DNA of 64,000 nucleotides from Agmasoma carcini (nom. nud.) (lineage: Eukaryota; Microsporidia; Thelohaniidae). The stretch is from contig JAOXFI010000014.1 in the NCBI GenBank assembly GCA_029232285.1, positions 1 to 64,000 on the forward strand. Reading direction: 5' to 3'. The notes below the pieces were generated by a model. It was not told the DNA's origin, ran no database searches, and worked only from the letters and a program-made list of their open reading frames with translations. Within the stretch, counting starts at the first letter, position 1. Each line of letters opens with the position of its first letter. Below are positions 28,420 through 61,640 of this stretch, piece after piece. Both the position numbers and the translations under genes were made by a program.

Positions 28420-28974
28420 TTATCTTTCATTTAAGAAATATGCGGATATCTGACCACCTTCAGCCATGATTTTAAACACATATGACCCTTTTTGATACCT
28501 CGGAGACTCCATTGTTGTATCATTTGGTGCTTTGATAGCAAACACAAGCTTATTTTTAAAAATTTTTAAATTTTCAAGATCTTCATAAGTAACATACGCA
28601 TTATTAATTACTGAAGAATTAGATGACATTTCTTGTATGTCTTTGTTGTATTTATCGATGCAATCATCTAAATATTTTTCTTCTTTTGTTTTTTCACGAT
28701 AGTCAATTTCTTCCTCATTTGCGTCTGAAGACAGAATTTCATCGATATTATCTCCGATCCACTTAACGCTGTTAACAGACCACTTAGTGACGTACCCCAA
28801 CCCTTCCAAAACGTTTGTAATGTCGTATATACGTCTCTTACCAACGCCAAGCACCTTAGAAGCATGTGTCATGTTCAAAACGTTTTCTTTATCTTCACTT
28901 AGTAATTTGATGAACTTTCTAGTTAGATTGAAGAGTGAATTTTCGTCTCTCTTTGAGCTTGTAAAAGTTTGCAT
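28420..28974 (-). CDS. E2F: E2F-type transcription factor
   Basis: The protein has 184 residues. The E2F/DP DNA-binding winged helix is at about 12-75: SLFNLTRKFIKLL, then GVGKRRIYDITNVLEGLGYV and WIGD. RRIYD is the base-contacting motif. A coiled-coil and marked-box region follows (about 85-180), with YVTYEDLENLKIFKNKLVFA and IKAPNDTTMESP, so this is an E2F rather than a DP partner. There is no pocket-protein-binding tail. E2F/DP dimers drive G1/S genes in animals, plants and early fungi, while ascomycete yeasts lost them. Its ATG is 11 bases from the ATG of MED18 on the other strand. Confidence 0.9.
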   Translation of the reverse strand: MQTFTSSKRDENSLFNLTRKFIKLLSEDKENVLNMTHASKVLGVGKRRIYDITNVLEGLGYVTKWSVNSVKWIGDNIDEILSSDANEEEIDYREKTKEEKYLDDCIDKYNKDIQEMSSNSSVINNAYVTYEDLENLKIFKNKLVFAIKAPNDTTMESPRYQKGSYVFKIMAEGGQISAYFLNER

Positions 28975-57523: not shown

Positions 57524-58378
57524 ATGGAAAAAGAAGAAGATCCTTTATTTTCTTATAGACTTGCTAAAACTATAAAAGACACTTCAGGGATATCAAATCC
57601 TCGTTATACCATCGATGGAAGGTCTCTTGCTTACATAACTGATGGCCAACTAAAGCTATTAGACACTAACACCTTCAACTATCACAATATGATATCAACA
57701 TATATAAAAAACTTTGAATTCTTTCAAAACAACACAATTCTTTATAACTACAATAATGTATTAGAGTACATGTCAGTCTATGATAATAAAATATTAAGTA
57801 AATATGAAGAACATAACAATCCAATAACTAACATATCAGTTAATTCTAATAACGACGCAATATTGACAGTATCTAATGATCTGATATGCACCTGGGACAT
57901 AAGAATGAGGAGACCAACCAAAATATTGAAAAATGTGGGCCTTATAGGCTGTATAAAGGACAAACATGACTATTCATTGGCTAATAACAATTTTATTTAC
58001 ATTTTTGACAGTAGAAATGATGTGTGTCCTGTAGAAACTAAAATGATCAGCCCTGATTTCTATAAGAGCATGTGGTACACTTCTAATGGTAAAAATATTA
58101 TATTAAGCTCTAATAAAAACTATAATTTATGTTCTGATGATGGTATCTCTAGAAATATGATATTTTTGGATGGTGATAACATGGGAGACACCACACCTGA
58201 TTCAGAAATATTGATCTGTAGATCACCAAGGTATATTTTAGGCTATAGAATATCAGATAGGAAGATGGTGTCAAGATTAGAGACTAAAATTAGTGGATTT
58301 CAGATAAGAGTCAATCCTGTAGTACCTGAATTTGTATCTTTATCAAATAAGGAAATATGTTTTTACATGCCAAATTAA
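57524..58378 (+). CDS. SWD2: WD40 protein SWD2 (WDR82), COMPASS and CPF subunit
   Basis: The protein has 284 residues and is a WD40 propeller. The stretch EYMSVYDNKILSKYEEHNNP (about 81-100) matches the LSLHDNxYxRYFxGH signature of SWD2. TVSNDLICTWDIRMRRPTKI (about 115-135) is its WD repeat ending WDIR, and FIYIFDSRNDVCPVET follows. SWD2 is shared by the Set1 H3K4 methyltransferase complex and the cleavage and polyadenylation factor. It is slightly shorter than yeast Swd2 (329). The ATG follows AAAAATTTTTAAAAAAATTGAC. Its neighbours downstream are two further chromatin-type genes. Confidence 0.8.
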   Translation: MEKEEDPLFSYRLAKTIKDTSGISNPRYTIDGRSLAYITDGQLKLLDTNTFNYHNMISTYIKNFEFFQNNTILYNYNNVLEYMSVYDNKILSKYEEHNNPITNISVNSNNDAILTVSNDLICTWDIRMRRPTKILKNVGLIGCIKDKHDYSLANNNFIYIFDSRNDVCPVETKMISPDFYKSMWYTSNGKNIILSSNKNYNLCSDDGISRNMIFLDGDNMGDTTPDSEILICRSPRYILGYRISDRKMVSRLETKISGFQIRVNPVVPEFVSLSNKEICFYMPN

Positions 58379-58515: not shown

Positions 58516-59070
58516 TCAATTCTGTCTTTCACTATATTTTACATATCCAGGATAATCTGTCAAATCCATCAATTCTTCAATTTTAATTATAACCTGTGGG
58601 TGATCTAGAGCCATGAAATCTTCAACTGACGAAAACTCATAAATTCCATTCAAATCATTACAAAAATCATTCCATAAATTATCACCACTCCATTTACGAT
58701 TATCTTCACTCACAATCTCAACTCCATTCTTATTTATTGTAATTGTGTACAATATTTTATCTTTAGATTTATTAAAATTTTTATGCGCTCTAAACCTCTT
58801 CTTGCATGAATAATTAAGAGGATATATTAAATTATTTTTAATTGCATAAACTTTACATCCCAAATTAGTAATTGAAATTCTTTGAGCTCCATTACCTAAT
58901 AAAATAGGATAATTGTGAACTTTAGTGCTGTTTATTGAGCTAACCAATAGGTTTTTGTAACTAACACATTCTCTATACTTAATTTCAAGTTCCATCTTAT
59001 CTAAATAGCTTTCATGTACTTTTTTGTATAATTCTTTGAATTTATCTCCAAATGATTGATGTGGTTCCAT
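58516..59070 (-). CDS. FYRN/FYRC-domain chromatin protein (TBRG1-like)
   Basis: The protein has 184 residues. An N-terminal coiled coil (about 8-48, DKFKELYKKVHESYLDKMEL) comes first. FYRN follows at about 80-125 (IYPLNYSCKKRFRAHKN, then KILYTITI), and FYRC at about 118-175 (KWSGDNLWNDFCNDL, DFMALDHPQVIIKIEELMDL). FYR domains occur in MLL/Trithorax methyltransferases, JARID demethylases and TBRG1. The coiled coil plus FYR pair with nothing else is the TBRG1 plan. It is divergent from the SUZ12-like gene across 151 bases and convergent with SWD2, which suggests but does not prove a chromatin-gene cluster. The ATG follows AAAATTTTTATCC. Confidence 0.75.
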   Translation of the reverse strand: MEPHQSFGDKFKELYKKVHESYLDKMELEIKYRECVSYKNLLVSSINSTKVHNYPILLGNGAQRISITNLGCKVYAIKNNLIYPLNYSCKKRFRAHKNFNKSKDKILYTITINKNGVEIVSEDNRKWSGDNLWNDFCNDLNGIYEFSSVEDFMALDHPQVIIKIEELMDLTDYPGYVKYSERQN

Positions 59071-59221
59071 GGATAAAAATTTTATGCATAATAAAAATTA
59101 TTATGGATGATTGATATGCATTAATATTTTTTTTAAAGTATTTGCATAAAAAAATTTTATATTATGAATGATTGATATGCATTAATATTTTTTTAAAGTA
59201 TTTGCATAAAAAAATTTTATT
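59071..59221. promoter_or_regulatory. Bidirectional promoter with tandem duplication and octamer-like sites
   Basis: A 60-base unit is present twice (about 59103-59162 and 59163-59221). Each copy has GATTGATATGCATTAATATT, TTAAAGTATTTGCATAAA and AAAAATTTTAT. The octamer-like ATTTGCAT is at 59140-59147 and 59200-59207. Each unit begins with a relic of the start region (ATGGATGAT at 59103, ATGAATGAT at 59163), matching the real start ATGGATGAC at 59222. Confidence 0.75.
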
Positions 59222-60274
59222 ATGGATGACATTTTGAAGAGGTGGGTACTTGAATTTAAAATAAGTCTAAATCCGCCTTTTAAAGTCCAACAGACCTCAA
59301 AAGATGTAAAAATAAAGATAAATGAAGAGGAATGTAGCTCTTTTACCTTTGAAAGTCTTGATTTAGACTGTGAATCTATTCTTTACAGTGGCTACATTGA
59401 GTCAAACAATGGAATTATTCCAATTTCTCTAGAACCAAACAAAAAAATAATTTTATTTTCATGCTTTGATAAAATTCATTTTTATATTTTAACTTCTAAA
59501 AATGATTTAAAATTATTTTATGCAGAATTTCATTGCTGTCAAAATTTTGATATTGAAAAATTAATATTTAAACAAATTGGTGTTTTTGGTAAGCATAAAT
59601 TTGTAGAAAATGGTATTGAAAGTATTGAATTAAAAGTTAAAGTTAAAAATATAAGAAAAACGAGATATCATTATAACTTTAAGAAAATAAAAAATGAAAA
59701 TGAATTAATTGATCTTAGAATTGATAATAATGTATATTTGATTGATAGATATAGATGTATATTTTGTTTGAAAATATTTAAAAATCAAAATTATTTAGAA
59801 AATCATATGAATTTGATTCATGCAAATTTTAAGACATTGGTTACATCTAATCAGGTAGAGGTTATGAGTTCGATTCCTGTTGAAGGTAAAAATATAAATT
59901 TTAGTTTTATAAAAAGAAGTAAATCTGTAAAGCTTAATTATAATTTAAAAAAATATGAAAGATTATTTGAAAGAGAATATAATAATATTGATTATTCTAA
60001 AATGCTTGGAGATCATTTAAATTATGAAATATTGAAAGATTTGGATGATTTAAGGAAGTACACACCAGAAAATAAGATAAGGATTGAAGAGTTTGAATTT
60101 TTTACTTATTTTAATAATTTAATGATTAAAGATTTTGATTTGCATAAAAATATAAAAGTTATGCATAAACATTTTGGATATGGAGAAACATTTATAAAAT
60201 TTCTAGAAGTTTTATATCATAGAGGAATATTAAATAGTATAGAATTGTGTTCTATAATATTAAGTTTAGAATAA
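59222..60274 (+). CDS. SUZ12/VEFS-like C2H2 zinc-finger protein
   Basis: The protein has 350 residues. A beta-rich N-terminal half (about 1-170) precedes one C2H2 finger, C179-x2-C182-x12-H195-x4-H200, in RYRCIFCLKIFKNQNYLENH. The same spacing and the following aromatic after the last His occur in the SUZ12/VEF family. The last 100 residues resemble a VEFS box: KIRIEEFEFFTYFNNLMIKD, then KNIKVMHKHFGYGETFIKFL and VLYHRGILN. In PRC2 the VEFS box binds and activates the E(z) methyltransferase. The assignment rests on pattern matching. A general zinc-finger protein cannot be excluded. Confidence 0.6.
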   Translation: MDDILKRWVLEFKISLNPPFKVQQTSKDVKIKINEEECSSFTFESLDLDCESILYSGYIESNNGIIPISLEPNKKIILFSCFDKIHFYILTSKNDLKLFYAEFHCCQNFDIEKLIFKQIGVFGKHKFVENGIESIELKVKVKNIRKTRYHYNFKKIKNENELIDLRIDNNVYLIDRYRCIFCLKIFKNQNYLENHMNLIHANFKTLVTSNQVEVMSSIPVEGKNINFSFIKRSKSVKLNYNLKKYERLFEREYNNIDYSKMLGDHLNYEILKDLDDLRKYTPENKIRIEEFEFFTYFNNLMIKDFDLHKNIKVMHKHFGYGETFIKFLEVLYHRGILNSIELCSIILSLE

Positions 60275-60279
60275 AATAT

Positions 60280-60545
60280 GTTATTTTAGTATATGTAAGT
60301 ATATGTATTTGGTGTATGGTATATGTGTTTGATATATATCTTTGGTGTATGTAAGTATATGTGTCTGATATATTTAAGTATACGTGTTTGATATATGTAT
60401 TTGGTATATATTAGGTTAGTATTATCATACTTATATGTAAGTATATATTAGGTTAGTATTACACAACTTATATGTAAGTATATGTTAGGCTAGTTATATC
60501 ATACTTATATGTAAGTATATGTTAGGTTAGTATTATCATACTTAT
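60280..60545. repeat. TATGTAAGTATATGTTAGGTTAG tandem repeats
   Basis: Tandem variants of GTATATGT, TTAGGTTAGTATTATCATAC and ACTTATATGTAA run from the SUZ12-like stop for about 265 bases. Just beyond, ATTTGCAT recurs at 60570-60577. From 60600 to 60767 no gene is seen. Confidence 0.75.
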
Positions 60546-60767
60546 AAATACTTGCATAAATATATAAAAATTTGCATAAATATTAGTTATATATTTTTTT
60601 TTCTAGAAAAAAAAAACTATAAATTTACGTAAAAAAAATAACTCAGGAATTCTTAAGCTGTAATCTTATGAGACAGTGTGTCAAATTCCTAAAACTTTGG
60701 TTCTAAGAGCCCAATGCTTAGCTATGGGTGTCATAAACCATATAAATTTATATTTAAGTTTTAACTT

Positions 60768-61265
60768 TTATTCATCCTTCTTTTTACCTCCAAACTCTTC
60801 ATCCAATACATTTATAAAATAGACATGATCAAGCTCACCTGTTTCATAATACAATTCAGTAATTTTTATGCATCTCTCAATCTTATTAAATTTTATAACA
60901 TAATTAAAATTATTATCAACTTTCGTTATAACACTTAAGTTATCAAAGATAAATATTCCATCAATCTTAAAGTAATTAATAGCATAAACTATTAGCACAA
61001 GAATAAAATCAACTCCTATTAAAATATTTTGCATTGATTTGATGTCTTGATACTTTTTACACATGCTATTGTAACATATTAGCATACACAGAGAGACTGC
61101 AAACACACCTACGAGGTTACGTAAATTTTCATAAAAATAATTAGGTTTACAACCTTTACCCTCTAAGTATGAGCATAAAAGACCATCCAACCTCTTCTTT
61201 AGATTATCAATGTTATTAATGTCACCTTTTATAGGTTTCTCATCATATTTTTTGGTTAAGTCCAT
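60768..61265 (-). CDS. SPC2: Signal peptidase complex subunit 2 (SPC2/SPCS2)
   Basis: The protein has 165 residues. The N-terminal cytosolic part has NLKKRLDGLLCSYLEGKGCK, recalling the LKxxLDD start of the family. Two membrane helices follow (about 51-68, GVFAVSLCMLICYNSM; about 80-100, IGVDFILVLIVYAINYF). A cytosolic C-terminal domain of beta strands ends GKKKDE. SPC2 supports the catalytic Sec11 subunit, which removes signal peptides in the ER. The size is near yeast Spc2 (178). The ATG follows AAAAAATTTTAACC. Confidence 0.75.
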   Translation of the reverse strand: MDLTKKYDEKPIKGDINNIDNLKKRLDGLLCSYLEGKGCKPNYFYENLRNLVGVFAVSLCMLICYNSMCKKYQDIKSMQNILIGVDFILVLIVYAINYFKIDGIFIFDNLSVITKVDNNFNYVIKFNKIERCIKITELYYETGELDHVYFINVLDEEFGGKKKDE

Positions 61266-61369: not shown

Positions 61370-61640
61370 CCATGTTAGTTAGTAATGTTCAGTCATGGTC
61401 AAGATTAGTCATGGTCAGATTAGTCAAGTCTAGCCATGGTCAAGATTAGTCATATGATCAAGGTGTCAGGTCCAGTCATGGTCAGATAGTCAGGTCTAGC
61501 CATGGTCAAAGTTAGTCATATGGTCAAGGTCAGATTTAACCATGGTCAAGATTAGTCATATGGTCAAGTCTAGCCATGGTCAAGATTAGTCAGATAGTCA
61601 GGTCTAGCCATGGTCTAGTCATGATCAGGTGGTTAGTCCT
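61370..61640. repeat. AGTCATGGTCAAG tandem array
   Basis: Tandem variants of TAGTCATGGTCAAGAT, TAGCCATGGTC and AGTCAGGTC fill about 270 bases of the divergent spacer between SPC2 and the helicase gene. Similar words occur at 17430-17545. Confidence 0.85.

Follow-up and report, generated by a model that had tools for sequence, protein, structure and literature searches.

Does a 350-codon open reading frame (ORF) in a parasite genome encode SUZ12, the scaffold of Polycomb repressive complex 2 (PRC2)? The ORF is located within a 64,000-nucleotide stretch of DNA (the window; positions 1 to 64,000 of contig JAOXFI010000014.1, Agmasoma carcini assembly GCA_029232285.1). An original prediction, made from the letters, had read it as a single C2H2 finger followed by a VEFS box, noted an SWD2 and an FYR-domain gene beside it, and proposed that the lineage keeps a minimal PRC2; a profile scan, a structure comparison and a genome search for the partner subunits E(z) and EED were suggested as checks. 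Our analyses suggest that the ORF is a shortened, fast-evolving SUZ12 and PRC2 scaffold, a reading to which we assign a probability of roughly 0.7. This putative identity rests on one modest structural match and on the genome context.

The finger and the modelled C-terminus of the ORF

The ORF and its parts are as follows, with model confidence given as the predicted local distance difference test (pLDDT).

59222..60274, forward strand: SUZ12-like ORF, 350 amino acids in one frame without interruption
59279..59641, forward strand: predicted strand-rich N-terminal half, approximately residues 20–140 (pLDDT mostly <50, model unreliable)
59750..59821, forward strand: C2H2 finger, residues 177–200 (C179-x2-C182-x12-H195-x4-H200)
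60053..60271, forward strand: modelled helical C-terminal domain, residues 278–350 (nearest structure, SUZ12 VEFS residues 602–682)

The C-terminus was modelled from residues 237–350, the only fragment folded, which was cut at the expected VEFS start. SUZ12 sequences were kept out of the alignment used for fold prediction because they would have biased it towards the expected fold. Among 35 realigned PDB chains, taken from a library of 350,542 chains, the modelled C-terminus most resembled SUZ12 VEFS, and the two chains that stood out both belonged to the SUZ12 family, which had been hypothesised before the structure search. The structure-guided identity to SUZ12 VEFS was ~10% over 69 residues, and residues 278–286 were poorly modelled. 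The structure check, with SUZ12 VEFS as the nearest realigned chain, gave moderate support, and the C-terminal residues may adopt a VEFS-type helical arrangement. A full-length single-sequence model had a mean pLDDT of 39.6, with residues 1–236 unusable; compared with the PDB, it matched nothing at E ≤ 0.001, and SUZ12 was absent among the 50 listed of its 197 matches. The predicted strand-rich part occupies the position of the SUZ12 C2 domain, in a model that is unreliable there.

The single finger with C-x2-C-x12-H-x4-H spacing was confirmed. It scored 15.5 bits (whole protein) and 16.8 bits (residues 167–350) against Pfam zf-C2H2, for which the cut-off is 25.2. The SUZ12 finger model Zn_SUZ12 (PF23320) matched residues 176–204 in the scan of residues 167–350 (E 0.14, 12.4 bits), where it ranked seventh of ten, under its cut-off of 28 and under six generic C2H2 models. 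The finger spacing is identical to that of human SUZ12, and both proteins have a Phe at +3 from the last His (HANF in the ORF, HSRF in human).

A ~60-base imperfect tandem duplication (59099–59220) abuts the start codon of the ORF. Within it, a 33-base part with TTTGCATAA is exactly doubled (59128–59160 and 59188–59220). TTTGCATAA occurs 5 times in the window compared to 2.73 expected, an enrichment that is not significant (11/100 shuffles reach 5).

Candidate PRC2 partners and histone H3 in the genome

The searched genome consisted of 69 contigs and 4,263,419 bases. Two ATP/ADP translocases of family PF03219 were identified (E 2.8e-57 and 3.1e-21), and among heterotrophic eukaryotes such translocases point to Microsporidia and close kin. 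Together with the small genome and its compactness, judged by eye, they indicate a microsporidian lineage; the microsporidian small-subunit ribosomal RNA model RF02542 was unmatched in the assembly (64 first-look candidates, 5 scored).

A whole-genome SET search yielded two genes. One, with an open frame of 1214 codons and a Cys-rich tail resembling post-SET by eye (L001), we take to be SET1-like. The other, on contig C51 (L002/L059), is the E(z) of this genome, encoding 579 amino acids from one Met or 661 from an upstream Met, in an open frame of 680 in which 19 residues precede the first Met. Its PDB matches favoured EZH2 (97 bits) over the best MLL chain (75 bits, E 5.4e-20), and the 19 PDB chains related to it at E ≤ 1e-20 were EZH2, EZH1 and EZH2–SUZ12 chimera chains (5kkl_B carrying no informative name). 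The Y of EYLGE, the NHS motif and FFDY are retained. The Cys-rich region aligns with its EZH2 counterpart, an alignment that composition bias keeps from being significant. A C-x2-C-x3-D-C-x2-H motif is present, which we take to be the zinc-binding part of MCSS, where E(z) meets VEFS.

The EED candidate (L014/L033/L060) is a 325-residue protein encoded on contig C56. Human EED matched this gene at E 4.7e-16 and the next WD40 gene at 1.7e-6. In the PDB, EED chains (65 bits) ranked behind Tako8, LIS1 (~98 bits) and FBXW7 (~70 bits), and for this reason the gene is named as a probable EED, as judged from its sequence. The genome search for partners therefore recovered E(z), with EED probable only. 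In a global alignment, human Tyr148, one of the residues of the H3K27me3 cage, faces an Ile in the candidate, which may weaken or abolish the ability of EED to read H3K27me3; the other cage positions had no confident alignment. The Nurf55/RBBP4 family PF12265 was unmatched in the genome, where the controls were silent too and a diverged copy could escape. A human RBBP4 fragment recruited WD40 genes, the best being a CDC20-type ORF at 2.4e-8. Two distinct CDC20/Fizzy-type WD40 genes (L004 and L027) scored 316 and 206 bits (family cut-off 200).

The main H3 tail reads ARTKQAARKTTGGGGKAPRKQLVTKSARKTAG. Compared with the human H3 tail, A-R-K-T is kept at the K27 position (local SARKTAG), with a two-residue insertion before it. 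Three H3-type genes were seen (L043, L044, L045): one is near-canonical with the tail insertion, a second has a strongly altered tail in which TARKSTG is still present, and a third is very divergent, perhaps CENP-A by eye.

If the ORF is SUZ12, its C-terminal VEFS-type helical domain would pack onto the E(z) encoded elsewhere in the genome, and this domain and EED would hold the E(z) catalytic lobe together. E(z) would then methylate H3 Lys27, whose local sequence SARKTAG is kept. We infer that the ORF, E(z) and EED form one complex; it would methylate H3K27, and the mark would silence genes. The complex would be minimal, with a SUZ12 of about half the human length, Nurf55/RBBP4 not detected and an Ile at the EED cage residue. 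The proposal of a retained minimal PRC2 is partly supported: the genome encodes an E(z) and probably an EED, and the VEFS box, which no sequence statistic confirmed, has moderate support from the modelled structure. More tentatively, and at somewhat less than even odds, microsporidia with tiny genomes may keep a three-subunit PRC2 (half-size SUZ12, EED without an intact cage, catalytically complete E(z), no Nurf55) that writes H3K27 methylation without read-and-spread feedback, providing an intracellular parasite with a minimal form of silencing.

Sequence tests for VEFS and other candidates

None of the following sequence comparisons confirmed a VEFS box in the ORF. VEFS-Box PF09733 was not listed at E ≤ 10 by hmmscan of the whole ORF, nor in the profile scan of residues 167–350. 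A phmmer search of the ORF against the PDB returned zinc-finger chains only, and the human VEFS fragment compared with the ORF behaved as with shuffles (across 12 tests, the best fractions were 0.039 with the finger and 0.485 with VEFS). Profiles were run against 255 targets, including 200 shuffles of the ORF itself: with a VEFS profile of 116 SUZ12 sequences the ORF ranked 156th among 235 listed targets, and with a finger profile of 110 sequences 17th among 144. The hhalign score of the C-terminal 115 residues against the SUZ12 VEFS alignment was equalled or exceeded by 29/60 shuffles and 34/53 control ORFs. When the finger was included (residues 165–350), no shuffle (0/60) and one ORF of 53, a Sec24 zinc-finger ORF, equalled it; there the finger alone aligned, over 27 columns with a probability of 2.8%. 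Gapped profile alignment from the finger to the C-terminus under five gap settings was reached, in the best case, by 90/600 shuffles and 10/154 control windows, and within the structure-suggested range (eight tests) by 381/2000 shuffles and 29/594 windows.

Against ~5.8 billion proteins, in a search that depends on exact words, the whole ORF gave 1927 word-sharing candidates with none scoring at E ≤ 1, and residues 172–350 gave 227 with none at E ≤ 10. An alignment of the ORF with the human SUZ12 fragment, used as query, retrieved 227 proteins; among the 120 listed, those with species names were animals and no microsporidian name appeared, many of the listed proteins carrying no species name. 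In the whole genome, no candidate got to scoring with PF09733, for which the controls were equally silent, or with the human SUZ12 fragment, and the PF23320 search was empty. An IEEF string common to the ORF and human SUZ12 found no support in the shuffle tests and was discarded as evidence.

The sensitivity of such profiles is limited. A 22-sequence SUZ12 profile, whose named members are animals, detected fungal VEFS chains in the PDB at just 15 bits (E 0.075–0.076). These chains, 5bjs_B, 5wfc_B, 5kkl_B and 5vk3_B, are E(z)–SUZ12 chimeras, presumably from Chaetomium thermophilum, and were unlisted at E ≤ 10 when the human SUZ12 fragment alone was the query. Because known fungal VEFS is barely detected, SUZ12 is highly divergent and microsporidian proteins evolve fast, a missing VEFS profile match is weak evidence. 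The originally predicted fit of the C-terminal block to the VEFS box was confirmed by no sequence statistic and received moderate support from the modelled structure.

Other C2H2 proteins of the genome were compared as possible SUZ12 candidates. At least 13 matches in 10 ORFs were found (read by eye), including DNAJC21/JJJ1-like, REI1-like and several two-finger ORFs. One further long single-finger ORF (L066), which resembles ARS2/SERRATE, has ~65 residues past the finger compared to 150 in the window ORF. By eye, the nine C2H2 ORFs found besides the window ORF all fitted the SUZ12 layout no better.

Neighbouring genes, rival readings and known systems

The genes around the SUZ12-like ORF are as follows.

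57524–58378, forward strand: WD40 gene, SWD2/WDR82-compatible, beyond the divergent small gene
58516–59070, reverse strand: divergent small gene, 184 amino acids (FYRN E 0.0014, 18.6 bits, cut-off 24)
60768–61265, reverse strand: signal-peptidase SPC25 gene (PF06703 36.6 bits, cut-off 24.3), on the other side of the ORF

The SWD2 neighbour is plausible: the PDB matches of the WD40 gene were a dynein-assembly WD40 protein (1.8e-4) and then S. pombe C824.04 (E 3.3e-4), presumably Swd22. The FYR neighbour has an FYRN match, but one under the cut-off, and a PDB search with the product of 58516–59070 returned five unrelated rows (E 0.16 or worse) and nothing related to FYR. Should the FYRN match hold, the SWD2-like gene would have a tiny stand-alone FYR protein as its neighbour. 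SWD2 and FYR proteins are H3K4-side types. Elsewhere, loosely repeated short words (TATATGTAAGTATATG; CATGGTCA/TAGTCA types) were seen by eye in intergenic DNA flanking SPC25 (~60280–60560 and 61380–61620), and a 184-amino-acid ORF at 28420–28974 (reverse strand) has by eye a motif, RRIYDITNVLEGLGYV, that we take to be of the E2F/DP DNA-binding type.

The ORF could instead be an unrelated, lineage-specific nuclear protein with a single C2H2 finger, such as a transcription or RNA factor, whose VEFS likeness reflects common helical packing. We consider this unlikely: the two standout chains came from a family named in advance, the genome has an E(z) and probably an EED, which would normally be accompanied by SUZ12, and by eye the other nine C2H2 ORFs found fit no better. 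Less probable still is a SUZ12-derived VEFS protein acting outside PRC2, for example on the SET1/COMPASS side, with an undetected protein scaffolding E(z)–EED. VEFS-box proteins besides Su(z)12 orthologues occur in many eukaryotes according to passages of PMC9018016, and the neighbours are SWD2-like and perhaps an FYR protein. Adjacent genes, however, say little about membership in one complex, the PRC2 role is the one that a reduced genome should retain first, and no second candidate was seen among the C2H2 ORFs found. We retain SUZ12 as the preferred identity.

E(z)-type genes are reported to have a patchy distribution in fungi, with none in budding or fission yeasts, and some Microsporidia have them, several others having no SET gene at all, as stated in passages of PMC9692433. 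Of 60 histone-modification cofactors, Vavraia and Nosema are described as missing similar ones (excerpts of PMC9252792, whose supplement holds the list). In the passages seen of the four papers that mention both microsporidia and SUZ12, PMC9252792 among them, no microsporidian SUZ12 is described. The stem 'microspor' was absent from the main text of the PRC2-evolution papers PMC9018016, PMC10638273 and PMC8788455, passages from PMC10983672, PMC2939574 and PMC12795459 concerned hosts or H3 phylogeny, and a search combining EED, EZH2 and microsporidia gave one paper, with passages on zinc fingers. E(z) in Microsporidia is thus already known, and a microsporidian SUZ12 appears to be undescribed in the searched literature (subscription journals, preprints and supplementary tables excluded). 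If our reading is true, the retention of a PRC2 core in a 4.26-Mb parasite genome would show how far this complex can be reduced, and H3K27-based silencing in microsporidia would become directly testable. Survey entries of 'E(z) without SUZ12' in reduced genomes would then be probable detection failures, not losses.

Compared to the SUZ12 family, the ORF has a finger under the profile cut-off, an unlisted VEFS and ~10% structure-guided identity. The VEFS of Chaetomium thermophilum PRC2 was barely detected by profile (15 bits), yet it was detected, unlike the putative one of the window ORF. High divergence of SUZ12 is reported for a number of species, in one of which an overlooked SUZ12 was recovered with the help of predicted structures; C. 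elegans MES-3 and Cryptococcus Bnd1 are diverged SUZ12 proteins first missed or unidentified, and Bnd1 was pointed to SUZ12 by HHpred and a predicted structure (passages of PMC10638273). MES-3 and Bnd1 were tied to PRC2 by other work, whereas the ORF is known here from its sequence and a model; by description, the likeness is that a SUZ12 role is kept or proposed despite divergence. With 350 amino acids, the ORF is shorter than human SUZ12 (739). Human SUZ12 (5hyn, 5ij7) has the same C-x2-C-x12-H-x4-H-x2-F single finger upstream of a VEFS-type domain, which in the ORF is modelled, and a strand-rich part N-terminal to the finger, as predicted by the unreliable N-terminal model of the ORF.
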